A DNA stretch of 35,110 nt, from assembly GCF_001436255.1 (NCBI RefSeq), contig NZ_AZEI01000075.1:1-35110 (forward strand), read 5' to 3'. The notes under the pieces are model-generated. The model searched no databases, was not told the origin of the DNA, and saw only the letters and a program-made list of their open reading frames with translations. Origin of the DNA: Lentilactobacillus rapi DSM 19907 = JCM 15042. Lineage in GTDB: Bacteria > Bacillota > Bacilli > Lactobacillales > Lactobacillaceae. Below are positions 10,311 through 31,558 of the stretch, one piece after another; the stretch's first letter is position 1; every line of letters starts with the position of its first letter. The position numbers and the translations under genes were made by a program.

Positions 10311-10428
10311 GTGAGCGGAGTAAAGCGATTAGAAACTGGATCCTAAGTCTCCTTCGGCAGAAATCCCTGGCTTTGGGATTTTGTCGAAGGTGCTTAGGAG
10401 GAAGTTTCTGCTTTACGCAGCTGTCCTA
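10311..10428 (-). repeat. Hairpin element E1, leader of the oxidoreductase gene
   Basis: A 118-bp imperfect palindrome, sense on the minus strand. Stems: GTAAAGC/GCTTTAC, AGAAACT/AGTTTCT, CCTAAG/CTTAGG, then CCTTCG/CGAAGG. It ends (CTCAC) seven bases before AGGAGG of the downstream gene. Its first bases TAG are the stop codon of lacI. Bulge reads AATC instead of the usual AACC. Confidence 0.85.
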
Positions 10429-11412
10429 CACACTCTGCCTAGCAATAATTTTAAACGGGGTAAAGGTTGATTTGGCAGCCTTTGCCGGTTGATTAATAAT
10501 CCGCTGCATCCCCCGAACCCCCATCTCGAAGAATTCCTGAGTGACGCTGGTTAATTGAGGTCGCACGATGCTGCAAAGTTTCGTGCCATCAACGCTCATC
10601 ACTGCCAAGTCAGCCGGAATTCTCAATCCATAATCCTGCGCCTGATTCATCACGCCAATTGCGGCCAAATCACTGGATGCGATCACCGCGGTCACTTCCG
10701 GTTCACGACCATATTGTTTCATAGCATTAACGCCGTCTTCGTAGGCAAAATCACCGCCGAGAACCCAGGCCGAATTCAATTGCAACCCATTGTCGGCCAT
10801 GGCCTGACGGTAGCCGTCCAACCGCAACTGACCGGTCACAGAGTTTAAATCCGCTGCGGCAAAACCAATTTCGGAATGACCCTTATCGACCAAATACTTG
10901 GTGGCTTGATAGCCGATCTGAAAATCGTCAGAGGTAATGAACGGCAATTTCCGATTTTTAAGGGTGATCGATAGGAACTGATACGGAATATTGGCATTCA
11001 CTAACAGGTCCTCGTTAGCCGGATTAAGGTCAACCGCGACCAACAAAATCCCCATCACCGACCGCTCGATCACGGTTTCCAAAGCTTTCCGCTCCATCTG
11101 GGGATCTTTTTCGCCAGCATACAAAATAATCACGTTTAAATCATGCTGACGAGCTTCTTGCTGAATGCCATCAATGATCTGGTCGGAAAAGTTCGTTTGG
11201 GTTGAGCTGACGATGACCGCAATCACCTTGCTGCGGCGGGTAACCAGTTCAACGGCAGCCGTATTTTTTTGATAGCCAAGTTTTTTGGCTGTTTTTTTTA
11301 CCTTTTTTGCCGTTTTCTCGGAGTAAAATTCTGTCTGCCCAGACAGCACCCTCGAAACTGTGGCAGGAGAGACCCCTGCTTGTCTGGCAATATCTTTAAT
11401 TGTGACCGCCAT
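10426..11412 (-). CDS. LacI-family regulator of the alpha-glucoside operon
   Basis: A 328-residue regulator. Residues ~4-23 are the LacI helix-turn-helix (TIKDIARQAGVSPATVSRVL), followed by the hinge region and a periplasmic-binding-protein-like sugar domain (SDDFQIGYQATKYLVDKGH; VMSVDGTKLC near the end). It is divergent from an MFS sugar transporter and a GH13 glucosidase, so it most likely represses them until the sugar or a derivative binds. Three palindromic ACGTTT-centred sites lie in the intergenic region. The stop codon TAG (10428-10426) lies in the first bases of hairpin element E1, so the last codons may have been altered by insertion of the element. Confidence 0.88.
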   Translation of the reverse strand: MAVTIKDIARQAGVSPATVSRVLSGQTEFYSEKTAKKVKKTAKKLGYQKNTAAVELVTRRSKVIAVIVSSTQTNFSDQIIDGIQQEARQHDLNVIILYAGEKDPQMERKALETVIERSVMGILLVAVDLNPANEDLLVNANIPYQFLSITLKNRKLPFITSDDFQIGYQATKYLVDKGHSEIGFAAADLNSVTGQLRLDGYRQAMADNGLQLNSAWVLGGDFAYEDGVNAMKQYGREPEVTAVIASSDLAAIGVMNQAQDYGLRIPADLAVMSVDGTKLCSIVRPQLTSVTQEFFEMGVRGMQRIINQPAKAAKSTFTPFKIIARQSV

Positions 11413-11531
11413 GATTGCGCCACCTCTCTTTTATGTATGTTACAAAGTTTTACTGGGATCATTAACGTCAACCGTTTTACAATGTCAATCTCATTTTACC
11501 ACAGTAAACGACGCCTAAATTTTTAGTAAAA

Positions 11532-11545
11532 CACAAACGTTTGTG
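11532..11545. promoter_or_regulatory. Perfect LacI-type operator
   Basis: CACAAACGTTTGTG, a perfect 14-bp palindrome between divergent regulator and transporter. It has the central CG of LacI-family operators. Confidence 0.75.
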
Positions 11546-11562
11546 ATATTGATACAAAAGGT

Positions 11563-11591
11563 TTGCAAACGTTTTCTTCGGGTGCTATTAT
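11563..11591 (+). promoter_or_regulatory. Promoter of the sugar operon with overlapping operator
   Basis: TTGCAA, 17 bp, TATTAT (a TATAAT also lies at 11589-11594). The -35 is the left end of TTGCAAACGTTTTC (11563-11576), which fits cre-like or LacI operators except for the last base. Binding here would block RNA polymerase. Confidence 0.7.
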
Positions 11592-11596
11592 AATCG

Positions 11597-11611
11597 TTGT
11601 AAACGTTTCCT
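11597..11611. promoter_or_regulatory. cre-like or LacI-type operator at the start site
   Basis: TTGTAAACGTTTCCT lies just past the -10, near the expected transcription start. It resembles the CcpA cre pattern except at its end, so both specific and carbon-catabolite repression are possible. Confidence 0.65.
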
Positions 11612-11652
11612 TGCAATATATTTATTGGCCAAGTTGCTGGGAGGGTTCACGG

Positions 11653-11763
11653 GGAACGGTCGTGTAAAGCGAAATTCCTACCTAAACACCCTTTTTCAAA
11701 ATTCCTGAAGTAGGAGCTTTCGAAAAAGAGACTTGGGTTTCTAACCGCTTTACTCCGCTCACT
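11653..11763 (+). repeat. Hairpin element E2, leader of the sugar transporter
   Basis: A diverged copy, sense on the plus strand. GTAAAGC/GCTTTAC, GAAAT/GTTTC and a CCTAA/TTGGG stem are kept, the AACC bulge is present (CTAACCGC), and the apical part is CTTTTTC/GAAAAAG. It ends about eight bases before AGGAGG of the transporter gene, so it is in the 5' untranslated RNA. Confidence 0.75.
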
Positions 11764-11784
11764 TATTTTTTAGGAGGAATCATT

Positions 11785-13176
11785 ATGGACGCAAAAGCAA
11801 AAGCTGACAATGGTGACGTTAAAACTGAACCTAAAAGTTTTGCATCCCACTTGCCAAGTTTGAAAGTAAGTACGATTTTTGCAATGACGTTTGGCTTTTT
11901 CGGGGTTAACATGGCGTTCTCGCTTCAGCAATCACAAATGGGGCGAATTTTTCAAACCATTGGCGCCAACCCGAATAATTTAGGCTTTTTCTTCATCTTG
12001 CCACCGCTAGCCGGAATGGTTATTCAACCTTTAATCGGTAAATACTCCGACCGCACTTGGACCCGTTTTGGAAGACGCATGCCGTATTTATTTATTGGCG
12101 CACCCGTCGCAGCAATTGTTTTGGTATTACTTCCTAACGCCGGTTCATTTGGATTCGGTTATGGTTCGGCAGCCGCACTGTGGTTTGCCGCTATCGCCAC
12201 CTTGTTCATGGACCTGTCATCCAACGTTTGTATGCAACCATTCAAGATGGTCATTGGCGACATGGTCAACGAAGACCAAAAAGATATGGCCTGGTCCTGG
12301 CAACAATCCTTCTCCAACCTTGGTGGGGTTCTCGCTAGCCTGGTGCCATTCTTCCTCGCATTCATCGGCCTTTCCAACGTCGCTCAAAAAGGTGAAGTGC
12401 CAATCACCGTTAAATTAGCCTACTACCTGGCCGCAGCCGTTCTGTTGCTGACCTCGTTCTACACGATTGCCAAGGTTCACGAATACAATCCAGAAGAATA
12501 TGCTTTATATCACAACATTGACTTAACCAAGCAAAAGAAGCAGCCTAGTCTTTGGGAATTAACCAAGAAAGCACCCCGGGTCTTCTGGGAAATCTCAATT
12601 GTTCAATTCTTTACCTGGTTTGCCATTCTCTACTCTTGGACCTACGCTGCCGGTGCCATTTCCTTGAACGTTTGGCACACCTCCAACCCGTCATCAGCCG
12701 GTTATCAAGCCGCTGGTAATTGGTACGGCGTGCTTACCTGCATCCAAGCCGTTGCTTCAGTTCTCTTCGGTTTGTTAGTACAAGCACGGACTAAACCAGA
12801 ACACCGAAAAGCTTGGTACGTCTTTGGTTTACTTGCTGGTGCCCTTGGCTTCATCCTGATCTTCTTCATCCACAGCAAATGGTTGCTCGTTTTGCCATTC
12901 TGCCTGATCGGAATCACCTATATCACCATGAACACCCAACCATTCTCACTCTTAACAGAGGCTTTGAACGGTGAAAATGAAGGGGCTTACCTGGGACTCT
13001 TCAATTGTGCAATTTGCTTGCCACAAATTGCCGCATCCCTTTGCAGCTTCTTCATCTTCCCAATGGTTGGCCACTCAATGCCAGCAATGTTCTTAGTTGG
13101 CGGAGTTTCACTAGTACTCGCTGCATTTTCAGTTCGCTTTATCCACTCAAGACTGAGTGAACCAGTTAAACTATAA
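11785..13176 (+). CDS. MFS sugar transporter, SLC45/maltose-sucrose type
   Basis: A 463-residue protein with about twelve transmembrane segments. Start ATG 11785 lies seven bases after AGGAGG. The loop after segment 2 holds GKYSDRTWTRFGRRMPY, the MFS signature loop D-R-x(3)-R-G/R-R in the form seen in SLC45-like and related disaccharide transporters. It is followed 24 bp later by a GH13 alpha-glucosidase and preceded by divergent LacI, which says the substrate is an alpha-glucoside taken up with protons and not phosphorylated, probably isomaltose-, maltose- or sucrose-like. Which one cannot be told from sequence. Confidence 0.85.
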   Translation: MDAKAKADNGDVKTEPKSFASHLPSLKVSTIFAMTFGFFGVNMAFSLQQSQMGRIFQTIGANPNNLGFFFILPPLAGMVIQPLIGKYSDRTWTRFGRRMPYLFIGAPVAAIVLVLLPNAGSFGFGYGSAAALWFAAIATLFMDLSSNVCMQPFKMVIGDMVNEDQKDMAWSWQQSFSNLGGVLASLVPFFLAFIGLSNVAQKGEVPITVKLAYYLAAAVLLLTSFYTIAKVHEYNPEEYALYHNIDLTKQKKQPSLWELTKKAPRVFWEISIVQFFTWFAILYSWTYAAGAISLNVWHTSNPSSAGYQAAGNWYGVLTCIQAVASVLFGLLVQARTKPEHRKAWYVFGLLAGALGFILIFFIHSKWLLVLPFCLIGITYITMNTQPFSLLTEALNGENEGAYLGLFNCAICLPQIAASLCSFFIFPMVGHSMPAMFLVGGVSLVLAAFSVRFIHSRLSEPVKL

Positions 13177-13200
13177 TAACGAGAAAGAGGAGAATTCAAT

Positions 13201-14868
13201 ATGACCCACAAATGGTGGCAAAATGCCGTAATTTATCAGATTTATCCACAAAGTTTTCAGGACAGCAACAATGATGGAATTGGTGATCTTCATGGAATCA
13301 TCAAGCGCCTGCCTTATTTAAAGAAGCTTGGAGTTGACGTCCTTTGGTTGAACCCAATTTATCAGTCCCCTCTCAAAGATAACGGCTACGATATTGCCGA
13401 TTACGAGAAAATCTTACCAGAATATGGCACGATGGCGGACTTCGACGAATTGTTGAAAGAAGTCCACGCCCACGGATTGAAATTACTGATGGACCTCGTG
13501 GTTAACCACACTTCCGATCAACACCGCTGGTTCCAAGAAAGCAAACAATCCAAGGATAACAAGTACGCCGACTACTACATGTGGCACGATCCAGTTGACG
13601 GTCATGAACCCAACAACTGGCACGCAGCCTTTGGTGGCAGTGCCTGGACGTACGTTCCGGAACGGGGTCAGTACTACCTGCACCTCTTTGCCCCTGGTCA
13701 ACCCGATTTGAATTGGGAAAACCCAGCCGTTCGGGAATCCGTTTGGAACATCATGCGATTCTGGTTGGATAAAGGAATCGATGGCTTCAGAATGGACGTC
13801 ATCAACCTGATTTCCAAACCTGAAGGCCTTCCGGATGCACCTGAACCCGGCACCTACCCACTCACGGAGGGTCTGGTTGCCGATGGGCCTAAGTTGAACG
13901 ACTATCTCCGCGAAATGAACGACAAGGTGCTTTCCCACTATGATGTCATGACGGTTGGTGAAATGCCGAGTTCAAAGCCAGAAGACGCCATCAACTACAC
14001 TGGCCTCGACAGTCATGAACTGAACATGGTCTTCCAGTTCCAGCACGTTGCTTTGGAGCCCAATCCGGACAAACGCTTAGGCAAATGGAATGATCAGCCG
14101 GTCAAGTTACCGGAGTTGAAGAACGCCCTCTCCCGTTGGCAAAAAGCCTTAGATGGCAAGGGTTGGAACAGTCTCTACTGGAACAACCATGATCAACCTC
14201 GGGCAGTGTCCCGCTTCGCCAACGATGATCCAAAGTACCGGGTTCGCGCCGCTAAAATGCTGGGTACCACCCTTCACATGATGCAAGGAACGCCATTTGT
14301 CTTTGAAGGTGAAGAGCTTGGCATGGCTAATGTGCACTACACCAGCATTGATCAGTACGAGGATCTCGAATCAATCAACGCCTATCGCGAGTTGGTTGAG
14401 GAAAAGAAGCTGGTGGATGGGCCAACCATGCTGAAGTATTTGGCTAATATTTCAAGGGATAATGCTCGCACCCCAATGCCATGGGACGATGGCAAGAACG
14501 CCGGCTTCTCAGATGCAAAACCATGGTTTGCCTTGAATCCAACTTATAAGGAAATCAATGCCAAAGCGGCTGTTGACGATCAAGATTCCGTCTTCTACCA
14601 CTATCAAAAGCTGATTCAGCTCCGTCACGATTCCGACTTGATTAAGTTTGGAACCTATGATGAAATCGATCCTGACGACGCCGAAGTCTTTGCTTACCGG
14701 CGTCATTATGAAGGCAAGACGTTGCTGGTAATCAGTAACTTCACTGCCAACTCGGTGACCCGGGATTATGATCAGGGGAAAGCCGACAAACTCGTCATCA
14801 GCAATTACGATGATGATCAAGGCACGGAATTACGCCCCTATGAAAGTAAGGTCTATGTATTTAACTAG
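13201..14868 (+). CDS. GH13 alpha-glucosidase, oligo-1,6-glucosidase type
   Basis: A 555-residue cytoplasmic enzyme (no signal peptide) of glycoside hydrolase family 13, subfamily 31 type. Conserved regions: MDLVVNHT with D98, GFRMDVIN with nucleophile D199, VGEMPSS with acid/base E254, NNHDQPR with D331. V200 directly after the nucleophile is known from the Bacillus oligo-1,6-glucosidase family to mark alpha-1,6 specificity, while Ala or Thr is usual in alpha-1,4 enzymes. It therefore probably cleaves isomaltose, isomaltooligosaccharides or similar compounds imported by the preceding transporter. ATG 13201 follows AGAGGAG. A terminator follows the stop. Confidence 0.9.
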   Translation: MTHKWWQNAVIYQIYPQSFQDSNNDGIGDLHGIIKRLPYLKKLGVDVLWLNPIYQSPLKDNGYDIADYEKILPEYGTMADFDELLKEVHAHGLKLLMDLVVNHTSDQHRWFQESKQSKDNKYADYYMWHDPVDGHEPNNWHAAFGGSAWTYVPERGQYYLHLFAPGQPDLNWENPAVRESVWNIMRFWLDKGIDGFRMDVINLISKPEGLPDAPEPGTYPLTEGLVADGPKLNDYLREMNDKVLSHYDVMTVGEMPSSKPEDAINYTGLDSHELNMVFQFQHVALEPNPDKRLGKWNDQPVKLPELKNALSRWQKALDGKGWNSLYWNNHDQPRAVSRFANDDPKYRVRAAKMLGTTLHMMQGTPFVFEGEELGMANVHYTSIDQYEDLESINAYRELVEEKKLVDGPTMLKYLANISRDNARTPMPWDDGKNAGFSDAKPWFALNPTYKEINAKAAVDDQDSVFYHYQKLIQLRHDSDLIKFGTYDEIDPDDAEVFAYRRHYEGKTLLVISNFTANSVTRDYDQGKADKLVISNYDDDQGTELRPYESKVYVFN

Positions 14869-14887
14869 AAACACAATATATTCGGGC

Positions 14888-14938
14888 ATAAAGAGTCTTC
14901 TCAACTGATGGGGAGGCTCTTTTACTCTTTGTTTAATA
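14888..14938 (+). terminator. Terminator of the sugar operon
   Basis: AAAGAG-CTTCTC and GGGAG-CTCTTTT arms around a short loop, with T-rich tail, 20 bp after the glucosidase stop. Confidence 0.85.
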
Positions 14939-14972
14939 CCGCAGGAATCCATTGACCTATCGGCATAATATT

Positions 14973-15000
14973 TTGGTTAGTTATTATTTCGATATATAAT
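14973..15000 (+). promoter_or_regulatory. Promoter of the MgtC-like gene
   Basis: TTGGTT, 16 bp, TATAAT, ending 37 bases before the ATG. Confidence 0.6.
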
Positions 15001-15036
15001 GCAATTAGTTATATTATTTGATCGGAGGTGCTGCCA

Positions 15037-15723
15037 ATGGATTACTGGTTATATCAACTGGAATGGGTGCTGCGACTGTTTGTGGCCGCTATTTGCGGTG
15101 GCGCGGTCGGTTATGAGCGCAAAGTCCGCTTGAAAACTGCCGGCATCCGAACCCATATGCTGGTGGCCGTCGGTGCCGCCCTCTTCATGATTATTTCTAA
15201 ATACGGCTTCTTTGATTTAACCGGCCATGCCACCGACATCAGCTTGGACCCATCCCGGGTGGCTTCACAGGTTGTCACTGGAATCGGGTTCATCGGTGCC
15301 GGCGCAATCATGACCAGAAACCACAAAATTGACGGTTTGACCACTGCGGCCGGCTTGTGGGCAACGGCGGCAATTGGGTTGGCTATTGGAGCGGATATGT
15401 ATGTCATCGGGATTGCCGGTACGCTGTGCATTCTGATCACCCAAACAATTGTCCGCAGAATCAAGGCGCTGAAACGCTACCCGAACCGCACCATGATCCG
15501 CCTGCAAGTGACCTTCACTGGAAAGCTAAACGATATGGATGCCCTGCCGAGACGATTGCAAATTATCGGCAGCAGCAATGTTCGCATGCGAATCTTGGCA
15601 TATAAGCCAGATTCGTTCTCACTAGAAATGCAAATTAGATTAATAAGACGAACAGATCCTGATGATTTCATCATGAAGATGAGTAATTTGGCGGATGTGA
15701 AGAAGATTGATGTGTTGGATTAA
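15037..15723 (+). CDS. MgtC/SapB-family membrane protein
   Basis: A 228-residue protein. ATG 15037 is chosen for its GGAGGTG six bases before it; an in-frame GTG at 15028 overlaps that site. Residues ~1-140 hold about four to five membrane segments with the family motifs GGAVGYERKVRLKTAGIRTH and TGIGFIGAGAI, and the C-terminal ~85 residues are a soluble alpha/beta domain. MgtC-like proteins in Gram-positives are linked to magnesium limitation, acid tolerance or ATP-synthase inhibition; the exact role here is not known. It has its own promoter and is followed by two hairpin elements. Confidence 0.87.
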   Translation: MDYWLYQLEWVLRLFVAAICGGAVGYERKVRLKTAGIRTHMLVAVGAALFMIISKYGFFDLTGHATDISLDPSRVASQVVTGIGFIGAGAIMTRNHKIDGLTTAAGLWATAAIGLAIGADMYVIGIAGTLCILITQTIVRRIKALKRYPNRTMIRLQVTFTGKLNDMDALPRRLQIIGSSNVRMRILAYKPDSFSLEMQIRLIRRTDPDDFIMKMSNLADVKKIDVLD

Positions 15724-15730
15724 AAGCAGA

Positions 15731-15837
15731 GTGTGGAACCAAGCAGCAATCAGTCCATAAGTTGCCATCAGAAAAAATCCTGTACTTGGGATTTTTACTG
15801 ATGGTGCTTATGGGCAGATTGCTGCTTGGTGGAACAC
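15731..15837 (-). repeat. Hairpin element E13, diverged copy
   Basis: A 107-bp copy, sense on the minus strand. It keeps the core TAAGCACC and the internal loop TGCC/GACT, with arms CCAAGCAGCAATC/GATTGCTGCTTGG and CATAAG/CTTATG, but lacks the 4-nt bulge. It stands just after mgtC with no gene immediately downstream in its sense direction. Confidence 0.75.
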
Positions 15838-15857
15838 GTTTCGGCTATGTTGCCAGA

Positions 15858-15974
15858 GCGCGACGAGACCCGGTTTGACCCCGGAGCATAAGCAGAATCA
15901 GCCAATGATGAACGCTTTTTGTTCATTGTTGGTTGGTTTTGCTTATGCAGTAGGGGTCAGGGTCGTCGGAGCGC
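15858..15974. repeat. Hairpin element E14, larger relative
   Basis: A 117-bp palindrome with GCGCGACGA/TCGTCGGAGCGC outer arms, TTTGACCCC/GGGGTCA, and GCATAAGCAGAATC/GGTTTTGCTTATGC inner arms. The GCATAAGC core links it loosely to the main family. Orientation cannot be decided. Confidence 0.6.
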
Positions 15975-16099
15975 GTTTCCACTACATAATGGCGTACCAA
16001 TCCAAAGTATCTTAGAAACCTATCAAAGATTTCTACCATAGTGGCATACTAAACCCACTATCCATAAGTAAATTACTATCCAATACCCCCCACCAATCC
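15975..16099. other. Intergenic, no gene seen
   Basis: AT-rich stretch before the small-RNA promoter. Short inverted repeats (AGAAA/TTTCT, AGTAT/ATACT) are visible at 16009-16053 but have no clear role. Confidence 0.4.
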
Positions 16100-16128
16100 T
16101 TGAAGCCACCGCACAAATCATGTATTAT
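16100..16128 (+). promoter_or_regulatory. Promoter of the candidate small RNA
   Basis: TTGAAG (16100-16105), 17 bp, TATTAT (16123-16128). The expected start is about 16135. Confidence 0.55.
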
Positions 16129-16134
16129 AACTAT

Positions 16135-16227
16135 GTGAAAAGTGACTGCCAGTGTGCGAGACCGACAGCCACAAACGTAATTACGGATGATTTGGGCGAA
16201 GCTAATCTAAATGATTAGCTTTTTTTA
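16135..16227 (+). ncRNA. Candidate small RNA of about 93 nt
   Basis: Between a good promoter and a strong terminator (AGCTAATC TAAAT GATTAGCT followed by seven T). The 5' part can form GTGaCTG/CAGcCAC. It holds GATGATTTGGG (16186-16196), which is repeated in inverted form at 16273-16283, beyond the terminator. A short open frame overlaps it, but it starts inside the promoter, so I do not call it a gene. It may act on, or be countered by, a transcript from the opposite strand. Similar arrangements occur in type I toxin-antitoxin loci, but no Fst-like toxin is recognisable. Confidence 0.5.
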
Positions 16228-16500
16228 TTAGGTAATCCGCTCGCGCAAACGTTAAGCTTGCTTGTGCGGTTACCCAAATCATCACGGCGACTTGCGCCGG
16301 GACGGCCTCCTAATCTTTCCAATTGGCATGGCACCTCACCTCCGTGGGCATTTTACTGAGGGGTGGGCACCGTAACTCACTAAGCCAGAGTTGATTAGGT
16401 GCTACCTAAGTCTCTTGGCCATCTTTAGTTTTAACAGGCGATTAGTTCGCAACACAATCATTTTTTGCTACCGATTTTCTTGCGTGTTTTGTGATATACG
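16190..16500 (-). ncRNA. Candidate opposite-strand structured transcript
   Basis: On the minus strand a strong Shine-Dalgarno (GGAGGTGAGG) at about 16342-16351 precedes ATG at 16333 of a 15-codon basic frame (MPIGKIRRPSRRKSP); its stop overlaps the ATG of a second frame of 26 codons (TGATG). CCTCA upstream can pair with TGAGG of that Shine-Dalgarno, and CCTAATC/GATTAGG and CGGCG/CGCCG pairs add structure. A TTGACA lies at 16528-16523 on the minus strand but with only a weak -10. Boundaries and expression are guesses; coding is not established. Confidence 0.3.
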
Positions 16501-16583
16501 ACCTATTTAAATATATGTCGTGTGTCAAATTCATGATGCTATTCCAAGGAATTCTTCAAAATCATTTAAAAACTGGTCCCACA

Positions 16584-16622
16584 TAAAAAAGCCTATCAGC
16601 AAAAAACTGATAGACTTTTTTC
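16584..16622. terminator. Bidirectional terminator
   Basis: AAAAAAGCCTATCAG / CTGATAGACTTTTTT with loop CAAAAAA, seven bases beyond the stop of the minus-strand surface-protein gene. T-runs exist in both directions. Confidence 0.85.
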
Positions 16623-16628
16623 GTAATG

Positions 16629-19113: not shown

Positions 19114-19227
19114 AACAATATTCCCCCTTGAATTTTATATATAGTATATACAAATAATGTATACACTTGTATCCCTCTAACAATCTCATTCTAACATAAA
19201 GCGATTACAAACTGGTCAACAGATAAT

Positions 19228-19274
19228 AAAAAAGTCACCCTCACCATCCCTACAGATGAATAAGTGTGACTCCA
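19228..19274 (-). terminator. Terminator of the amino-acid ABC operon
   Basis: Minus strand GTCAC-ACTTATTCATC / GATGGTGAGG-GTGAC followed by TTTTTTATT, about 25 bp after the stop of the last permease gene. Confidence 0.85.
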
Positions 19275-19299
19275 TAAAACCTCATATTCAGTTGAAAAT

Positions 19300-22520: not shown

Positions 22521-22523
22521 AAG

Positions 22524-22572: not shown

Positions 22573-22632
22573 TAAATTGTGGGCTCAAATCACCTTTGAT
22601 CCAAACTCAGCATTTCGAGCGTTACCTTAAAT

Positions 22633-24077: not shown

Positions 24078-24155
24078 TCACAAAAACTTCCTTATTCAGA
24101 TTTGGTAGACCAATTATCGCACATTAGTTTGAACGATTGGTAAATTTTTATTTAA

Positions 24156-24596: not shown

Positions 24597-24674
24597 TCTA
24601 TTCACCTCGTGATATTGTTGGGTGGGATTCACTTGCTTGAGTTGACTTGGACTGGGTTACCCAAAACGCGAATC

Positions 24675-24710
24675 GCACTTTCGTTATAGTAACAATTACT
24701 ATTTAAGTGC
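24675..24710. promoter_or_regulatory. Nested palindrome upstream of the Fur-family gene
   Basis: ATAGTAA-CAA-TTACTAT (24686-24702, perfect 7-bp arms) lies inside GCACTT..AAGTGC (24675-24710). Size and place fit a Fur-type operator, but the centre is 3 nt rather than the usual 1. Confidence 0.5.
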
Positions 24711-24739
24711 ATACTATCACATTTAGTTCCTTGCAACAA

Positions 24740-25309
24740 CTATCCCATCGGTTCAATTAAATACTGAGTGACAATCTTATCAACTTTACGCTGAGTTTTG
24801 CCGAGATCCCAGTTCACGATTTCATAGGCCTTACCTTCCAGTTCTTCAGGCATTTCCAAGTCGCGAAGATATTCCTTACTATGGATGCGTTTAGCCACCA
24901 TCGCCGAATTGTCGCCGCGGCAAGCCATGCGTTTTTGCAGCTCTGTCGTGTCACCGACCTTGAGATAGATGATCACCGCTTGATCGCCGAGCTTTTGCTT
25001 ATATGTAATCGCCCCCGCTGTGTCCAACACGATACAGGCAAACGGTGACGTCTTCCAAGCGTTCTCCAGGCCTTCATAAGACGAGCCATAGCGATTGCCG
25101 GCGTAGACAACCGACTCCAAGTAGTGATTTTTCGGGAATGATTCCTTGGTTTCAAAATAGTAATCGACGCCATTCTTTTCGCCATCCCTGGGTTTTCGAG
25201 TGGTATGGGTGATCACTTTGGTCATATGAAATTTATCGTGTAAATAATTCCGCACGGTGGTTTTGCCACTACCCGCCGCACCGGTAATTACGAAAACTCG
25301 ATTTGTCAT
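24740..25309 (-). CDS. Guanylate-kinase-like P-loop protein
   Basis: A 189-residue protein with P-loop GAAGSGKT (10-17) and the guanylate-kinase pattern THTTRKPRDGEKNGVDYYF. Residues ~100-130 (DTAGAITYKQKLGDQAVIIYL) match the core. Its size is close to Gmk, but the rest is diverged, so it may be a paralogue with another nucleotide substrate. It starts three bases after the Nudix gene stop, so the two form an operon. Confidence 0.78.
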   Translation of the reverse strand: MTNRVFVITGAAGSGKTTVRNYLHDKFHMTKVITHTTRKPRDGEKNGVDYYFETKESFPKNHYLESVVYAGNRYGSSYEGLENAWKTSPFACIVLDTAGAITYKQKLGDQAVIIYLKVGDTTELQKRMACRGDNSAMVAKRIHSKEYLRDLEMPEELEGKAYEIVNWDLGKTQRKVDKIVTQYLIEPMG

Positions 25310-25312
25310 CCA

Positions 25313-25741
25313 CTATTCTCCGATATTTTCTTTATTACAAATGTAGTCGTTTGCCCGTTTCAATAACTGCTTCAAGTTGTCATAGGATAAGGTATCGTAG
25401 GCCTCCTGGTAGTTAAACCAGCCGTATTGGTTAATCTCTTCATCCTGCTTGGTCACCTTCACATCGGGGTGAACCTTGCTGACAAACAAAGTCACATCCT
25501 TGTGGTGCCCATTTTTCATATCGTATTCCAATTTTTCTTTGAAATTGGTGTCAATAATCGTCTTCAAATTCGTTTCTTCCCGGATTTCACGGACGGCTGT
25601 TTGAATGAGATTCTCATTCTTTTCAACGTGACCCTTGGGAAATCCCCAGAAATCATCAGTCGCACTTCGCAACAATAGATAGCGGACACGGCCATCTTTG
25701 ACCTCATAAACAACTGCGCCACTTGCATATTCTGTAACCAT
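25313..25741 (-). CDS. Nudix hydrolase, Ap4A-hydrolase type
   Basis: A 142-residue protein. Start ATG 25741 follows AAGGAG; further upstream in-frame codons are inside hairpin element E3. The Nudix box is GHVEKNENLIQTAV REIREET (37-57), with N58 instead of the usual Gly. The N-terminal pattern (SGAVVYEV, YLLLRS, FWGFPKGHVE) fits asymmetric bis(5'-nucleosyl)-tetraphosphatases, which destroy stress-linked dinucleotides. It is co-transcribed with the guanylate-kinase-like gene. Confidence 0.82.
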   Translation of the reverse strand: MVTEYASGAVVYEVKDGRVRYLLLRSATDDFWGFPKGHVEKNENLIQTAVREIREETNLKTIIDTNFKEKLEYDMKNGHHKDVTLFVSKVHPDVKVTKQDEEINQYGWFNYQEAYDTLSYDNLKQLLKRANDYICNKENIGE

Positions 25742-25764
25742 CAAAGACACTCCTTTTTGTAGTA

Positions 25765-25878
25765 GTGTGCGGAGCAAAGCGGTTAATAACCGAAGCCTAA
25801 GTCTCCTCAACTATAAATTCCGGTTTTGGGAATTTGTAGTTGAGGTGCTTAGGTGCAGGTTATTGCTTTGTGCAGCAC
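25765..25878 (-). repeat. Hairpin element E3, leader of the Nudix operon
   Basis: A 114-bp copy, sense on the minus strand. Stems GTGC/GCAC, CAAAGC/GCTTTG, AATAACC/GGTTATT, CCTAAG/CTTAGG, CCTCAACTA/TAGTTGAGG, bulge AACC. It ends ~12 bases before AAGGAG of the Nudix gene. Confidence 0.88.
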
Positions 25879-25890
25879 GATTCAGTAATA

Positions 25891-26004
25891 GTGTGCGAAA
25901 CAAAGCGGTTAGAAGTCGGAACCTAAGTCTCCTCTAACATAAATCCCGGTTTTGGGGATTTGTGTTAGAGGTGCTTAGGTGCAGACTTCTGCTTTGTGCA
26001 GCAC
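25891..26004 (-). repeat. Hairpin element E4, tandem with E3
   Basis: A 114-bp copy 126 bp from E3, sense on the minus strand. Stems GTGC/GCAC, ACAAAGC/GCTTTGT, AGAAGTC/GACTTCT, CCTAAG/CTTAGG, CCTCTAACA/TGTTAGAGG. It lies 11 bp after the antiporter stop. Confidence 0.88.
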
Positions 26005-26014
26005 AATTCAACCA

Positions 26015-27154
26015 TCAGACTTTTAAAGTTCGCTTCAATAATAACGGTGCCACGATCGTTGACAACACGATCACAATAATAATTTCTGAATATAAATTTT
26101 TGGCCATCAAGTTGGCGGATAGCCCGATTTGGGCAATGATCAATGCCATTTCACCCCGAGAAACCATCCCGGATCCCACGACAAATGCACTCCGCCAGTC
26201 CATCTTGGTGATAGCTGCACCAAGCGCCCCACCGAATAGCTTCGTGGCGATTGCCAACAACGTCATGATGACAATGAAGCCTAAATTTTTGAGGACGCCA
26301 CCAAATTCCATATCCAGCCCAATGCTTACGAAGAAAATCGGGATAAAGAATGTGTAGCCAACCGAACTGACACTGCTGGAAACTTCATCCTGGAACTTCG
26401 TTTGGGAAACGGCCACTCCAGCGAAGAAGGCGCCAACAACTGAACTCAAGCCAATTACATCGGCAAGCCAAGCCATTGACAAACATAATACCAACGAGGT
26501 AATGGCGACCGAGCCGTGAACTGGAATCCGCTCAGCGAACCGTAACCCAATCGGTGCCACGTATTTGACCAACAAGATCACACCTAAAAAATATAACAAT
26601 TGGAGCATGGTTGCAACCACCAAATTGGGGGCGTTATCGTCTGCCACGCCAAATGAGCTGACAAAAATACTCAATAAGATAACGGCGATAATATCGTCAA
26701 CCACCGCGGCTCCGAGGATTGTCGCCCCTTCCTTGGTATTCAATTTCTTGAATTCACGGAGAACTTCAACACTAATCGATACAGAAGTTGCCGCAAAAAT
26801 AACGCCCCAAAAAATTGACCGTTCGAATCCTTGACCCATCAATTCGCCATAACCGTAGAACGCAATCATTGGAAAGAGAACGCCAATCGCGGCAACGCTA
26901 ATCGCTGGCTTGAAATATTTCTTGAGCAAGTCTAAATCACTCTCAATCCCAGCAATAAACATCAAAATGATGACGCCAATTTCAGATCCTGCGTGCATTA
27001 AGTGCGTGTTTTGCAGGACACCAAACACGCCGGGTCCCAAAATAACCCCAACAACCAGCTGCCCAATGACTGCGGGCATCCCCAATCGTTGACTGATGGC
27101 TGCGGCAAGCAGTGTCGCTATCAAAATCAGTGCAATTTGTCCAATAAACCCCAT
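26015..27154 (-). CDS. CPA2-type cation:proton antiporter
   Basis: A 379-residue membrane protein with about twelve helices. GAAVVDDIIAV with D153/D154 is the double-Asp site of electrogenic CPA2 antiporters such as NapA, and the TSVSISVEVLRE stretch before it fits the family. No C-terminal TrkA domain is present, so it is a NapA-like sodium/proton exchanger rather than a Kef channel. It helps keep pH and sodium in balance. The ATG at 27154 has no strong Shine-Dalgarno that I can see. A tandem array of hairpin elements lies about 75 bp upstream. Confidence 0.85.
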   Translation of the reverse strand: MGFIGQIALILIATLLAAAISQRLGMPAVIGQLVVGVILGPGVFGVLQNTHLMHAGSEIGVIILMFIAGIESDLDLLKKYFKPAISVAAIGVLFPMIAFYGYGELMGQGFERSIFWGVIFAATSVSISVEVLREFKKLNTKEGATILGAAVVDDIIAVILLSIFVSSFGVADDNAPNLVVATMLQLLYFLGVILLVKYVAPIGLRFAERIPVHGSVAITSLVLCLSMAWLADVIGLSSVVGAFFAGVAVSQTKFQDEVSSSVSSVGYTFFIPIFFVSIGLDMEFGGVLKNLGFIVIMTLLAIATKLFGGALGAAITKMDWRSAFVVGSGMVSRGEMALIIAQIGLSANLMAKNLYSEIIIVIVLSTIVAPLLLKRTLKV

Positions 27155-27228
27155 TCAATATCTTCCAATCTATCTTGTCCGTTTAGTAACTTATTAATTG
27201 TAACAAGTTTACCATACTAGAGAGAACA

Positions 27229-27347
27229 GTGAGTGGAGTAAAGCGGTTAGAAGTCGGAGTGTAAGTCGGCACCGAGAAAAATTCCCGGTTTTGGAATTTT
27301 TCTCGGTGGTGCTTACATGCAGACTTCTGCTTTACGCAGCTGTCCTA
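27229..27347 (-). repeat. Hairpin element E5
   Basis: A 119-bp copy upstream of the antiporter gene, sense on the minus strand. Stems GTAAAGC/GCTTTAC, AGAAGTC/GACTTCT, TGTAAG/CTTACA and CACCGAG/CTCGGTG. First of a 125-bp-period array. Confidence 0.9.
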
Positions 27348-27353
27348 TGAACA

Positions 27354-27472
27354 GTGAGCGGATCAAAGCGGTTAGAGATCGGAGTGTAAGTCTCCTCGAA
27401 CAGAAATTCCGGGTTTGGGAATTTTTGTTCGAGGTGCTTACATGCAGATCTCTGCTTTGAGGAGCTGTCCTA
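27354..27472 (-). repeat. Hairpin element E6
   Basis: A 119-bp copy, 125 bp from E5. Stems TCAAAGC/GCTTTGA, AGAGATC/GATCTCT, TGTAAG/CTTACA, CCTCGAACA/TGTTCGAGG. All stems except TGTAAG differ from E5 yet pair fully. Confidence 0.9.
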
Positions 27473-27478
27473 AGAACA

Positions 27479-27597
27479 GTGAGCGGAGTAAAGCGGTTAG
27501 AAACTGGAGCCTAAGTCTCCTTTGGCGGAAATCCCGGATTCTGGGATTTTTGCCAAAGGTGCTTAGGTAGAAGTTTCTGCTTTACGCAGCTGTCCTA
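27479..27597 (-). repeat. Hairpin element E7, good model copy
   Basis: A 119-bp copy, 125 bp from E6. In sense order: TAGGACAGC, loop TGC, GTAAAGC, AGAAACT, internal loop TCTA, CCTAAG, CA, CCTTTGGC, apical AATCCC/GGGATTT, then the partner strands with AGA, CTTAGG, loop CTCC, AGTTTCT, the AACC bulge, GCTTTAC, loop TCC, GCTCAC. Confidence 0.92.
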
Positions 27598-27603
27598 AGA
27601 ACA

Positions 27604-27645
27604 GTGAGCGGATCCAGGTGGTTAGCAACCGGAGTGTAAGTCTCC
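27604..27645 (-). repeat. Half copy of the hairpin element, E8
   Basis: Only one arm (42 bp, GTGAGCGGATCCAGG .. GTAAGTCTCC) at the next 125-bp position. It stops at the uidA terminator; the partner arm is missing. Confidence 0.8.
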
Positions 27646-27646
27646 A

Positions 27647-27692
27647 AAGAAAAAGAGATCCCCGCCATTATTTTCGCAGGTGATCTCTAAAA
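27647..27692 (-). terminator. Terminator of the beta-glucuronidase gene
   Basis: Minus strand AGAGATCACCTGCG / GCGGGGATCTCT followed by TTTTTC. It lies about 25 bp after the stop and abuts the half element E8. Confidence 0.85.
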
Positions 27693-27717
27693 ATCTTCAT
27701 ACTATATTGGTAGATAA

Positions 27718-29532
27718 TTACTTTGTTTTATAACCAAAGTTAGGAATATTTGTCCAACGATCTTTCAGGTAACGGACAACCATCTTTGGCTCACGGGCTC
27801 TGGTGAAGATGCCCTTCTTGTTCCCCTGAACGCGTTGGATGCCAAACTTGGTCTGGAAGTCCGCAAAGTTCCAAAGCTGTTCGCCAACAAAGTTTGGAAT
27901 TTCATCGAAGACTTTGCTGGACATCCGGTAATAATCTTCTTGGAATTCTTCGGAGAATGGCTCGCCGTACTTACTGTGAAGGCCAGCAACCGTATCAGCA
28001 CCGTATTCAGTGTACATGATCGGTTTGTCAGGGAATTTTGCTTGATATTCCTTCAGCTCATCACGAGTGGAAGTTTCAGCGGTCTTCAAATCTCCGTTGC
28101 CGATGTACCAGCCATAGTACCGGTTCAGTGCAATCACATCAACCAGATCAATACACTCATCCGTCTTTGGATTGGCCATCATAATACTGGTGTAGGTGCA
28201 TGGGCGTTTTTGCGGATCTAATTCTCTGGCTTCATCGAACAATGGTTTGAAATAGTCGTGGGCACCCTTGGAGAAAGTTGCGGCTTCATTGGCAATCGAC
28301 CACATCACCACGGATGCATGGTTCTTATCACGATCGATCAGCTCACGAATGACTTGTTTATGCGCTTCGGCAGTCTTCAATTCTTTCCAAGTATCATCTT
28401 CGTAATCGTCACTTTCCAGCATTGAAACGTCAAACCCAAACGTGACCATCAGGCCAACCGCAGTGGTTTCGTCAATCACAACGATCCCTTCGCGGTCACA
28501 TAGACGCATCATTTCTTCTGAATATGGATAGTGAGACGTCCTAAATGAATTGGCGCCCATGTCCTTCATGAGGTTAATGTCCAAGACGTTGACGGGCTCA
28601 TTGAAGCCGCGGCCGTGAACGTAGGTATCCTCATGCTTACCAAATCCTTTGAAGTAGAATGGCTCACCATTGATCAAGAATTGACCGTTTTGAACGGCGA
28701 TCTTTCGAACACCAAATGGTTCTGAGTAAGTATCCTCCACGTCACCATTTTTGATAAGGTCAACTTTGGCTGTATATAGATAGGCGTTCAGCGGCTGCCA
28801 TAAGTTGACGTTAGAAATGGTCAAGACTTCGTCGGTACCCTCGCCACTCACAACTTCTTTACCAGCTTGATCGAGAATCGTCACTTTAACCTCATCAAAA
28901 TCACCAGCAGCTTTGATTGTTGTGTGAACGTTGGCTGATTTTGCGGCTAAATCAACATCGGGAACAACCGTGATATCGTCGATGTGGGCTTGGGGCGTCG
29001 AATAAATTTTAACGGGGCGTTGGAGGCCAGCGTAGTTGAAAAAGTCAAAATTTTCATCAACTTTGCGAACCAGATGACCATTTTCGTCTTTGGATTCACT
29101 GTAATGACCGACCGGCAACGTGGAATAATCAAGTAAGTTGCTCAATTTGACGGTCAGGCGGTTATTGCTGGCTTGAAGATAATCATTAATTTCAACTTCA
29201 AACGGGGTGAAGCCGCCCTTATAATGGGTAATTTCTTGACCATTTAAATAAACCCAAGCCTCGTGAGTCGCGGAGCCAAACCGCAAAACCAGTCGTTGTG
29301 AACGGAGGGGCTTAGCGATATCAAAGTTGGTTTCGTACCAAAAGTAACCGGAATGGTCACGGATTTTCTGAGAAGCCGTCTGGTCATTAAATGAAGCGGG
29401 AACAGCAAGTACTTCGTCGGTTGGTAAGGGCTTAGTGACATCGATTGGGGTCACTTCTTCATCGATCATGAATTTCCAAAGGCCTGATAAATCAAGTAAG
29501 GCGCGGGTAGGTGTTGTAGTTGGGTATAACAT
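27718..29532 (-). CDS. uidA: Beta-glucuronidase, GH2
   Basis: A 604-residue cytoplasmic enzyme (no signal peptide). Glycoside hydrolase family 2 order: sugar-binding domain, Ig-like domain, TIM barrel. Acid/base E416 in SIANEAA, nucleophile E509 in MYTEYGAD. The motif N571-K-K573-G in GNKKGIFTR is the Asn-Lys pair that binds the glucuronate carboxylate in known enzymes. It removes glucuronic acid from conjugates. The ATG follows GGAGG. A divergent AraC-type regulator is next to it, but no glucuronide transporter or uronate pathway gene is in view. Confidence 0.92.
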   Translation of the reverse strand: MLYPTTTPTRALLDLSGLWKFMIDEEVTPIDVTKPLPTDEVLAVPASFNDQTASQKIRDHSGYFWYETNFDIAKPLRSQRLVLRFGSATHEAWVYLNGQEITHYKGGFTPFEVEINDYLQASNNRLTVKLSNLLDYSTLPVGHYSESKDENGHLVRKVDENFDFFNYAGLQRPVKIYSTPQAHIDDITVVPDVDLAAKSANVHTTIKAAGDFDEVKVTILDQAGKEVVSGEGTDEVLTISNVNLWQPLNAYLYTAKVDLIKNGDVEDTYSEPFGVRKIAVQNGQFLINGEPFYFKGFGKHEDTYVHGRGFNEPVNVLDINLMKDMGANSFRTSHYPYSEEMMRLCDREGIVVIDETTAVGLMVTFGFDVSMLESDDYEDDTWKELKTAEAHKQVIRELIDRDKNHASVVMWSIANEAATFSKGAHDYFKPLFDEARELDPQKRPCTYTSIMMANPKTDECIDLVDVIALNRYYGWYIGNGDLKTAETSTRDELKEYQAKFPDKPIMYTEYGADTVAGLHSKYGEPFSEEFQEDYYRMSSKVFDEIPNFVGEQLWNFADFQTKFGIQRVQGNKKGIFTRAREPKMVVRYLKDRWTNIPNFGYKTK

Positions 29533-29676
29533 AAATGAATTCCTCCGTTCAATTTGAATTGTGTCGTTGTTTAAAGATTAACCGAATTAGCCGACATATT
29601 CTTCTACTATTTTTACATAAATTGTTCTATAATGACTTTTATGGAACCGCTAACATTTTTTTGAGGAGTGACACTT
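29533..29676. promoter_or_regulatory. Divergent promoter region uidA/araC
   Basis: Contains TATAAT at 29628-29633 for the plus-strand regulator (the -35 is weak) and the short palindrome CAATTTGAATTG near 29558. The likely AraC operator lies in here but cannot be singled out. Confidence 0.45.
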
Positions 29677-30897
29677 TTGCCTTCACCAGATTATCAACAA
29701 TCAGCCAAGTTATTTCATTCTGCGACCCAACTTAATATCGTTATTTATAGTCATGCCGGTGACCAACTATTGGATCTAACCGATAGTGGCACCATTCAAG
29801 CCTTTCATAGCCGCACCGAATTTCACCAAATTATGATCCAACTGGCCGCTCAACCCGCTAATCGTTACCTGCATTTTGTAACAGCCACTAAGCTCGAATA
29901 CCTGATTGTGGGTTTAATCAAGCAGTCTCAATCGGTGGGAATGGTCGTTGTCGGCCCCTTTATCACGAATACCTTCAATCGCGAGGCTGTCAATGATATC
30001 TTAATCGACAATTCTTATACCGTCAGTGAACGGCGGCGTTTGGAGCAATTGTACCAAGGGTTGCCAATCCTATCGTCGACGAGAATCGCAGATATTGGCG
30101 CACTCTTGGTCAACTTATTTAATCACGCGCTGGTTCAGTCCCAACCAGTCAAGCTCATTGATAAAAGGGCCCGCCCTCACCATACCACCCTGATAAACGT
30201 CAGTGCTGAATCTCAGGTCCAAATTGAAAAGCGGTATCTGGAAGAACAGGAACTCATGGACGCAATTGCGGCGGGGAACAAACAGGGCGTTGAAAAACAA
30301 CAGCATTCGATTGCACGGATTACCGAGCTGTTTTCCAATCGAATTCCCCATCAGCCGCTCCGCTCAACCAAGAATATTTCGTTTGTCTATAATACCCTTT
30401 GCCGAATTGCCGCTCACCGTGGCGGAGTTCAGCCAGTTTACCTAAACGACATCTCCGAAAAGTATGCCCTGCTGATCGAGCGGCAAAACACCGTTTCCGG
30501 ATTGAAATCATTGACAGCTGCAATGGCACTGGAATATTGCGCACTCGTTGATTCAGTCTCAACTAATCAGTACAGCCCCATGATTAAGCGAGCGGCTGAC
30601 TACATTTTACTCAACCTGGGTCACCATATTTCGCTAGGGGAAATTGCCACTGAAATTGGCACGAACCCCTCATATCTGTCGCGAAAGTTCAAGGCAGAAG
30701 TTGGCTTGACCATCACCGATTATCTGAATGAAAAGCGTATTTCAGAAGCTAAAAAATACCTCGAGCGACCCACCCCGTCCGTCACTGACATCGCTTTGAT
30801 GGCCGGCTTTAACAACGTCACCTACTTCATAAAGGTGTTCAAACGGGTTGTTGGGCAGACGCCATTAGACTATCGGAATTCGGTTGGGCGAAGATAA
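29677..30897 (+). CDS. AraC-family regulator, probably of uidA
   Basis: A 406-residue regulator. Start TTG 29677 lies eight bases after GAGGAG; GTG at 29668 is inside that site. The C-terminal ~100 residues carry two helix-turn-helices (HISLGEIATEIGTNPSYLSRKF; SVTDIALMAGFNNVTYFIKVF). The N-terminal ~150 residues form a PAS/GAF-like sensor-type fold with LIVGLIKQSQSVGMVVVGPF. The divergent position makes it the likely activator of the glucuronidase gene; the inducer is unknown. Confidence 0.85.
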   Translation: MPSPDYQQSAKLFHSATQLNIVIYSHAGDQLLDLTDSGTIQAFHSRTEFHQIMIQLAAQPANRYLHFVTATKLEYLIVGLIKQSQSVGMVVVGPFITNTFNREAVNDILIDNSYTVSERRRLEQLYQGLPILSSTRIADIGALLVNLFNHALVQSQPVKLIDKRARPHHTTLINVSAESQVQIEKRYLEEQELMDAIAAGNKQGVEKQQHSIARITELFSNRIPHQPLRSTKNISFVYNTLCRIAAHRGGVQPVYLNDISEKYALLIERQNTVSGLKSLTAAMALEYCALVDSVSTNQYSPMIKRAADYILLNLGHHISLGEIATEIGTNPSYLSRKFKAEVGLTITDYLNEKRISEAKKYLERPTPSVTDIALMAGFNNVTYFIKVFKRVVGQTPLDYRNSVGRR

Positions 30898-31002
30898 TTG
30901 GCATCGTTTGGTTATCCCCTTTACAGATAGGTTCAGGCGGTTAGCACTTTCTGAGGCAAATCTTTGTGAAAATTGATCGCAATCATGACTGGAAAAGTAA
31001 TG

Positions 31003-31008
31003 TATAAT
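31003..31008 (+). promoter_or_regulatory. Probable -10 box of pepX
   Basis: TATAAT with no clear -35. If used, the 5' RNA would be about 560 nt long and contain the four elements E9-E12. Confidence 0.45.
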
Positions 31009-31066
31009 GGCTTTAACAATTGTTTTGGGGTGCTGTTTTAGGCAGTAACCTGGATCTGCTTTTTCT

Positions 31067-31184
31067 TAGGACAGCTGCGTAAAGCAGAAGCTTCCACCTA
31101 AGCACCTTCTGCAAAAATCCCAAAACCAGGATTTCTGCAGAAGGAGACTTAGGTTCCAGTTTCTAACCGCTTTACCCTGCTCAC
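31067..31184 (+). repeat. Hairpin element E9
   Basis: A 118-bp copy, sense on the plus strand. Stems GTAAAGC/GCTTTAC, AGAAGCT/AGTTTCT (with one wobble), CCTAAG/CTTAGG, CCTTCTGCA/TGCAGAAGG. Confidence 0.9.
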
Positions 31185-31189
31185 TCTTT

Positions 31190-31308
31190 TAGGACAGCTC
31201 CTCCAGGCAGCAACCTGCACGTAAGCACCACAAGCAAAAATTCCCAAAACCGGAATTTCTGCTTGTGGAGACTTACGTTCCGGTTGCTAACCGCCTGGAT
31301 CCGCTCAC
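31190..31308 (+). repeat. Hairpin element E10
   Basis: A 119-bp copy 123 bp from E9. Stems TCCAGGC/GCCTGGA, AGCAACC/GGTTGCT, CGTAAG/CTTACG, CACAAGC/GCTTGTG. The outer stem is wholly changed from E9 in both arms. Confidence 0.92.
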
Positions 31309-31314
31309 TTATTT

Positions 31315-31433
31315 TAGGACAGCTCCTCCAAGCAGAGATCTGCATGTAAGCACCTCCGAGAAAAATTCCAGAACCGGGAATTTCCCTCGGCGGAGACTTA
31401 CACTCCGATCTCTAACCGCTTGGATCCGCTCAC
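31315..31433 (+). repeat. Hairpin element E11
   Basis: A 119-bp copy 125 bp from E10. Stems TCCAAGC/GCTTGGA, AGAGATC/GATCTCT, TGTAAG/CTTACA, CCTCCGAG/CTCGGCGG. Confidence 0.92.
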
Positions 31434-31439
31434 TCATTT

Positions 31440-31558
31440 TAGGACAGCTGCGTAAAGCAGGAGTCTGCACGTAAGCACCTCCGAGAAAAATTCCAAACCC
31501 GGGAATTTCCCTCGGAGGAGACTTACGCTCCGACTCCTGACCGCTTTACTCCGCTCAC
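31440..31558 (+). repeat. Hairpin element E12, leader of pepX
   Basis: A 119-bp copy 125 bp from E11. Stems GTAAAGC/GCTTTAC, AGGAGTC/GACTCCT, CGTAAG/CTTACG, CCTCCGAG/CTCGGAGG. It ends four bases before GGAGG of pepX. Confidence 0.92.

Follow-up and report, generated by a model that had tools for sequence, protein, structure and literature searches.

A structure-defined hairpin family at gene edges in Lentilactobacillus and other Lactobacillaceae

We begin with the question raised by a 35,110-nt contig of Lentilactobacillus rapi DSM 19907 (NZ_AZEI01000075.1; the whole stretch is called the window here). Its intergenic regions hold a series of hairpins of about 119 bp in which whole stems differ from copy to copy and the two arms still pair. 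What keeps such a fold, and which nucleic acid carries it? The initial annotation had listed ten copies and considered either an RNA element or a hairpin recognised as single-stranded DNA. The hairpins are a real, widespread, recently active and structure-defined repeat family, and the strand under structural constraint is the one opposite to the downstream gene. The explanation that we favour, and hold to be probable, is a miniature element like the REPINs: non-autonomous mobile DNA whose defining trait is the shape taken by one strand, which an enzyme reads. It builds on the structure, copy number, unit ends, strand asymmetry and polar anchoring documented below.

A hairpin kept in shape and rewritten in sequence

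Alignment and folding of the ten copies (E1, E3 to E7 and E9 to E12) bear out the layout first described, with its stems, 4-nt AACC bulge, 3x3 and 4x4 loops and AATTCC/GGAATT top. RNAalifold places 39 pairs on the ten copies; 384 of the 390 cells pair (98.5%), with G-U in a single cell, and the exchange of whole stems in both arms is seen as two-sided changes at 20 of the 39 pairs. Their covariation score is reached by none of 500 shuffles, and slid control structures pair in only 24-47% of cells. Folded singly, five of the ten give z values of -7.7 to -9.3 against dinucleotide shuffles, while the further copy E2 lies 10 to 11 standard deviations below such shuffles.

The same holds in larger sets of 146 copies from this genome, 96 from other Lentilactobacillus and 55 from other genera, with alignments fitted to the model. 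Reverse-strand duplicates, which made up 54 of 150 rows in one alignment and 9 of 64 in another, were taken out for this count. In that order of sets, 96.2%, 94.7% and 94.4% of cells are paired, two-sided change occurs at 36, 36 and 38 of the 39 pairs, and the two-sided cells number 1115, 868 and 640, where shuffles yield at most 366, 255 and 214. The claim that structure and not sequence is conserved is strongly supported in all three. Across genera the stems are rewritten, whereas the layout, the bulge and the TAAG/CTTA segment with its pairing persist. The bulge is exactly AACC (GGTT on the antisense strand) in 93 of 146 copies of this genome and in 33 of 55 from other genera, its commonest variants being AAGC and CCC or ACCC. 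The antisense 5' ends read AGTGAGC, AGAGTGC or AGTGTGC; in the terminal arms and lower stems the pairing is fixed and the sequence is free to differ among subfamilies and genera.

The window corresponds to contig C11 in a draft assembly of 2.85 Mb, and a search with its pepX gene (31575-33986) leads to Lentilactobacillus species, L. dabitei being nearest at 96% identity. All ten copies are recovered at 128.7-142.7 bits by a covariance model that was built from the same ten. Beyond them we find the copies at 15726-15843, 15853-15980, 11651-11765 and 34961-35069 (the last two degenerate) and a 3'-arm remnant at 27603-27645. The features, with SD for Shine-Dalgarno sequence, are as follows.

10308..10429, minus strand: E1, full copy of type A; its GCTCACT end lies 6 nt before the SD of gene 9329-10285
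11651..11765, plus strand: degenerate copy in which the GCTCACT end and the 3' arm are intact; the SD of gene 11785-13176 follows immediately
15726..15843, minus strand: E2, type B (GAAACGTGT..ACACTCT), a copy that has lost the 4-nt bulge and adjoins the stop codon of gene 15037-15723 on the opposite strand
15853..15980, minus strand: second type B copy, diverged (42.5 bits), adjoining E2 across GGCAACATAG
25762..25884, minus strand: E3, full copy with GTGC/GCAC ends, beside the SD of the gene ending at 25313
25888..26010, minus strand: E4, full copy in tandem with E3; site empty in L. fungorum (L048)
27226..27348, minus strand: E5, full copy, covariance-model match
27351..27473, minus strand: E6, full copy; alignment score 117 of a maximum of 123 against the copy G000:C28:32172-32294
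27476..27598, minus strand: E7, full copy, covariance-model match
27603..27645, minus strand: E8, 3'-arm remnant; same place occupied in L. dabitei (L046)
31003..31008, plus strand: TATAAT, candidate -10 box of pepX, seen too in relatives with and without the array
31066..31187, plus strand: E9, full copy, first of four in the pepX leader, covariance-model match
31189..31311, plus strand: E10, full copy, covariance-model match
31314..31436, plus strand: E11, full copy, covariance-model match
31439..31561, plus strand: E12, full copy; its GCTCACT ends 3 nt before the pepX SD (GGAGG 31563-31567, ATG 31575)
34961..35069, minus strand: weak, diverged hairpin (32 bits), membership uncertain

Since the candidate -10 box stands upstream of E9 to E12, this array would lie in the 5' leader of pepX. 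Two other repeats are seen in the window: seven overlapping tandem copies with 78-nt spacing at 4032-4733, inside an 804-aa frame (2652-5066, minus strand), and a 65-nt stretch present twice at 97% identity (7600-7664 and 9336-9400). The latter position is the end of gene 9329-10285, and the copy at 7600 may be the remnant of a related gene.

The strand that carries the constraint

Which of the two strands folds? In a constrained folded strand, G.T (or G.U) wobbles survive better than A.C mismatches, and the two kinds of cell can be counted. On the strand that the initial annotation called sense, the 105 copies of type A have 90 A.C cells and 33 G.T cells, and this excess of A.C makes the antisense strand (5'-AGTGAGC...) the wobble-tolerant one. 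What had been taken as sense is the strand of the downstream gene; the structurally constrained strand is the opposite one.

The gene context of the copies brings the test to bear on RNA. Type A copies of the SD class, in which sense is the mRNA strand, favour antisense in 26 copies against 5 (sign test, nominal p=2e-4). Type B copies of the STOP class, where antisense is the mRNA strand, do so by 12 against 1 (nominal p=0.003), and type A copies in neither context (class OTHER) by 14 against 1 (nominal p=0.001). The antisense wobble excess returns in other species (120 cells against 36) and in other genera (75 against 22 cells; 36 copies against 7). Conserved unpaired positions show a substitution bias in the opposite direction (7/840 against 62/2187), which rules out mutation bias as the source of the asymmetry.

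That the antisense strand tolerates wobble even in copies whose mRNA is the opposite strand speaks against a leader RNA and in favour of a folded single strand being recognised. Of the two possibilities considered at the outset, the folded DNA strand is favoured, and a function as leader RNA, as at pepX, is an unlikely reason for the conserved fold; as a cause of the covariation it is disfavoured by this test. The overall rarity of wobbles also gives the impression of a DNA hairpin more than of a typical RNA. On this reading, strong covariation in a bacterial repeat need not mean a functional RNA.

A moving unit at the edges of genes

The next question is whether the hairpins move. In an all-against-all comparison of the 146 copies, of which the best 14 pairs were inspected, near-identical copies at unrelated loci are similar across AGGACAGC...GCTCACT only, and the flanking linkers differ. 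The mobile unit is this segment of about 119 bp, and because near-identical units at unrelated loci share just the unit, the element moves. Spread by exchange through TTTTAGGA homology is rejected, since such copies share neither linker.

Related genomes show filled and empty places. Between the TATAAT box and the SD of pepX there are four full elements here, two in L. kisonensis and one in L. dabitei; the gene is without an element in L. parabuchneri, L. otakiensis, L. kefiri and L. sunkii, and L. fungorum has a 77-nt remnant. The two-copy array 25762-26010 is absent from L. fungorum. A three-copy array elsewhere in the genome, again between a TATAAT box and an SD, is missing at the matching locus of the genome G011, with flanks 91-95% identical, no evident loss of host sequence and short leaders that differ in sequence. 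By eye, the first 4-7 nt of the right host flank frequently recur in the linkers within arrays.

The covariance model and the search of lactobacilli genomes that had been proposed at the start were run, and a dispersed family was found. This genome holds at least 150 copies (150 candidates were scored and all matched the model); we estimate about 270, on the basis of at least 146 independent copies in 0.81 Mb and of the exact count of TTAGGACAGC (75 in the subset, 137 in the genome). The copies are unevenly distributed over the chromosome. The largest contig seen (G000:C12, 533,768 bp) has very few of them, near 432 kb and 481 kb, and smaller contigs hold many. In one complete genome, with the record start taken as origin, one replication half has 18 and 9 copies and the other 18 and 20, a count that is not informative on replication-strand bias.

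Matches occur in 23 of 60 genomes (relatives and this one), in 16 of 23 other genomes of the genus (one of the 16 by a single weak match) and, in a sample of the family, in 35 of 121 genomes and 15 of 40 genera. The per-genome counts in relatives and in the family sample are lower bounds in which both strands of one copy may be counted, and remote subfamilies are undercounted because the model derives from type A and similar copies. Phage carriage is rejected: there is no match among 50,697 phage records, and none in viral contigs for one exact 55-position pattern. Nine plasmids have matches. On the L. parabuchneri plasmid pLPBN-1 (L161) the element stands where a LacI gene ends, with MFS and alpha-glucosidase genes next to it, and the cluster of LacI, MFS transporter and alpha-glucosidase genes with E1 in the window (10308-14868) recurs on this plasmid. 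On seven Lactiplantibacillus plantarum plasmids the matches are at genes annotated as substrate-binding or LacI-type. The sugar cluster may travel together with the hairpin.

We turn to the places that the unit occupies. Gene contexts were counted for the best 150 of 312 matches, of which 146 remain once reverse-strand duplicates are removed, in stretches chosen partly for holding copies. Of the 85 arrays in this genome, 31 have their GCTCACT end 8-24 nt before a co-directional start codon and 27 have it no more than 8 nt from an antisense gene's stop codon, so that 58 of 85 are anchored by this end against 3 of 85 by the other end in equal windows. Random intergenic points fall in the anchoring windows in 6.1% of cases (for stops, only points outside the gene). 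Just beyond these windows the distances are nearly empty, with no antisense stop at 9-50 nt and one start at 25-50 nt. Such sharp peaks point to more than a merely permissive region. In the 46 measurable of 50 SD arrays (this genome and other Lentilactobacillus pooled), the distance from array to SD has a mean of 7.1 nt and is 6-9 nt in 36; this linker is 60% T, compared with 32% before the SDs of 499 element-free genes. Some other arrays, by eye, abut a terminator-like T-tract or precede a partial copy. The genes were called by a simple script that missed some, and a few arrays classed OTHER precede an SD by eye.

The polarity extends to relatives: the GCTCACT end is anchored in 40 of 69 arrays of other Lentilactobacillus (other end, 5 of 69) and in 12 of 37 arrays of other genera (other end, 0 of 37), where seven more stand beside the A-tracts of apparent terminators as judged by eye. 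In five species the element is at the stop codon of what is apparently one and the same gene. In seven species it comes right after an aptamer-like RNA (at L116 201-418 and in L117, L118, L119, L120, L123 and L125, all save L116 identified by sequence likeness). Rfam identifies a thiamine pyrophosphate (TPP) riboswitch in one of the three loci scanned, L116, where the match overlaps the flank of the element model by 14 nt; L119 and L120 have no match at gathering score. An element after a TPP aptamer might have joined its expression platform. The stop-codon and aptamer copies are 60-80% identical to one another (one pair 90%) and belong to differing subfamilies, and 10 of these 12 are nearer to some copy at another locus. 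Edges shared by differing subfamilies indicate that the same edge was hit, or refilled, repeatedly. On the reading that we favour, the anchoring would reflect a choice of target and not position-specific selection.

One further array is of interest for its gene. Four hairpins (L093 11162-11659, G000:C25) stand directly before a gene whose product, starting MVKVGINGFGRI, we take to resemble GAPDH, so that an essential gene seems to tolerate a structured leader of 500 nt.

Explanations and known systems

How could a shape be kept while its sequence is rewritten? We propose that the active form is single-stranded DNA. The antisense strand would fold to a long hairpin that runs through AGTGAGC, GGA, 7 bp, the GGTT bulge, 7 bp, the 4x4 loop, the NNTAAG stem and a long variable stem-loop and back to GCTGTCCT. 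An enzyme would recognise this fold and read the bulge, the conserved GGTT being a likely handle by analogy with the way REP-associated transposases (for repetitive extragenic palindromes) treat folded single strands. The unit would be inserted with its AGTGAGC end towards the coding region, typically 6-9 nt before an SD, at or a few nucleotides after a stop codon, or after a terminator, and further units would join the array. If only well-folded units moved again, two-sided stem change with pairing kept would follow. A bolder version is tentative, and we consider it less than an even prospect: the hairpins may represent a new class of structure-defined mobile DNA, with an enzyme outside the known single-strand transposases and with insertion steered to the outer edges of translated or transcribed units (SDs, stops, terminators, an aptamer end), where the same edge is hit repeatedly by different subfamilies.

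Several observations weigh against the REPIN-like reading. Foremost is the partner enzyme. Among the 16 other carriers of the genus, 11 have no match to the Y1 transposase (PF01797), 12 none to reverse transcriptase and 11 none to the IS110 transposase; over 23 genus relatives these three families, the only ones searched, do not correlate with carriage and are rejected as partners. Three small groups of copies lean the same way in the strand test and are not significant (STOP type A 7:2, SD type B 3:1, OTHER type B 8:2). The copies are related and their cells not independent, so the p-values are nominal and the weight lies in the repetition in three data sets. The antisense fold is predicted to be the more stable in 140 of 142 copies of this genome, 94 of 96 from other Lentilactobacillus and 52 of 55 from other genera, an excess that is partly a composition effect (G/T-rich against A/C-rich loops). 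By eye, single insertions have no consistent target duplication and for the most part do not share the flank repeats of the array linkers. Only 12 of the 37 arrays in other genera fall in the SD or STOP windows, and position-specific selection for a role in RNA or translation could also yield the anchoring.

On the enzyme there is some further detail. The genomes G004 and G014 have no Y1 match and at least 59 hairpin matches each, and G014, with none of the three families, has hairpin pairs that score up to 113 of about 123. The single Y1 match of this genome has a diverged hairpin about 0.4 kb away (L070 2247-2367, G000:C22, 47.9 bits), probably by chance given the density of copies; no hairpin lies beside a Y1, reverse transcriptase or IS110 gene in 15 other loci searched. 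An autonomous copy with a gene in its loop was not found in 1.72 Mb of partly overlapping loci, in a scan with half-element profiles from this genome's copies that would miss diverged arms: 35 of 44 lone left halves have a right half within 4 kb, 34 of them within 320 nt and one at 1062 nt, where the right half belongs to a complete copy. The partner could be an enzyme of the host, or one that has since been lost.

Alternatively, the hairpin may be a cis-acting RNA element of mRNA leaders or 3' untranslated regions (a stabiliser, attenuator or leader switch) that is selected gene by gene. The very exact position relative to SD and stop codon speaks for this, as do the 31 of 85 arrays that end directly before an SD, the position of visible promoters upstream of the arrays, which should put these within the mRNA, and the copies that follow aptamer-like RNAs. 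We nevertheless regard it as unlikely: the wobble-tolerant strand of the leader copies is not the mRNA strand (26 against 5), copies of one architecture are found facing either way relative to genes, and related species have 0 to 4 copies at the same locus. A classical miniature inverted-repeat transposable element (MITE) moved by a DDE transposase would account for short, non-coding, palindromic and intergenic units in many copies. We think it improbable: the terminal arms here are fixed in pairing and not in sequence, insertion is strongly polar, and by eye single sites have no consistent target duplication.

We give even less credence to a retroposon, in which a reverse transcriptase would copy an RNA of the antisense strand, with truncated copies missing the 5' part of that RNA, although the wobbles do lie on that strand and the linkers are T-rich and of variable length. 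Lone left halves, which lack the antisense 5' part, outnumber lone right halves by 24 to 7 (E<1e-4), and 22 of the 24 lie no more than 400 nt upstream of a right half; the seven include one copy cut by the end of its locus and two with a merely diverged left half. In type B arrays at gene ends, half units that keep the 5' arm and top and have lost the 3' arm stand in series upstream of one full unit. Some half units, however, resemble internal deletions, and the reverse transcriptase domain PF00078 has no match in G014, where copies are many and some pairs near-identical, or in 11 further carriers. The least credible alternative is a palindrome free of structural selection, in which template switching or hairpin repair would maintain complementarity by using one arm as the template for the other. 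Mismatched cells are indeed few and whole stems are exchanged in both arms, but such copying would erase the bulge and the asymmetric loops, and the exact AACC persists in the counts given above; it also predicts no strand bias among wobble cells.

If the REPIN-like reading is true, roughly three of every ten Lactobacillaceae genomes in the sample contain a mobile hairpin, apparently undescribed, which is inserted at the edges of genes and rewrites the mRNA leaders of ordinary genes (pepX here, a GAPDH-like gene elsewhere), and its movement needs an enzyme not yet named. The family would also be a natural data set on the recognition of folded single strands and a candidate tool for inserting short DNA beside start sites. 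The initial remark that no named family with this layout was known to its author agrees with our finding no description in Rfam or the open-access literature, a search that had ISfinder and most subscription journals outside its scope. At gathering score Rfam has 0 matches in the window; below threshold, 31030-31600 gives only microRNA hairpins (best E 7e-5), far under their cut-offs.

It remains to compare the family with known systems. Integron attC sites are bottom-strand hairpins with extrahelical bases whose shape is more conserved than their sequence, and our hairpins are like them in being folded, with unpaired bases and with shape kept over sequence. They differ in their ends, which by eye read AGGACAGC and GCTCACT and not RYYYAAC/GTTRRRY, and in occurring in both orientations relative to genes. 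Excerpts of PMC8266576 name the integron integrases beside the REP transposases.

Bacterial MITEs such as bcr1 of Bacillus cereus, RUP, NEMIS and EFAR are described in parts of PMC3733652 and PMC3446304 as non-coding, mobile, often gene-adjacent and transcribed, with bcr in untranslated regions. In being non-coding mobile elements beside genes they resemble the hairpins; unlike them, they have terminal inverted repeats of 15-30 bp, going by the same portion of PMC3733652, whereas the hairpins leave sequence free and keep pairing and bulge.

REPINs with their RAYT transposases (TnpA_REP) come nearer. They too are short intergenic units in many copies that form a long hairpin, and compensatory changes between their arms, noted in excerpts of PMC3116915, are a precedent for the pattern seen here. 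As the relevant sections of PMC8266576 have it, REP transposases act on one strand of a folded hairpin, and the E. coli REPs require a bulge; in PMC3733652, again as excerpted, GTAG REP termini often supply a stop codon to flanking genes. The hairpin family differs in having no GTAG (or CGTC) tag, nor any constant tag before the antisense 5' ends, in its unit of about 119 bp, in its precise anchoring at SDs and stop codons, and in the 11 of 16 other carriers of the genus without a Y1 match. It fails the tag and enzyme tests of REPINs, and in its logic it is nearest to them.

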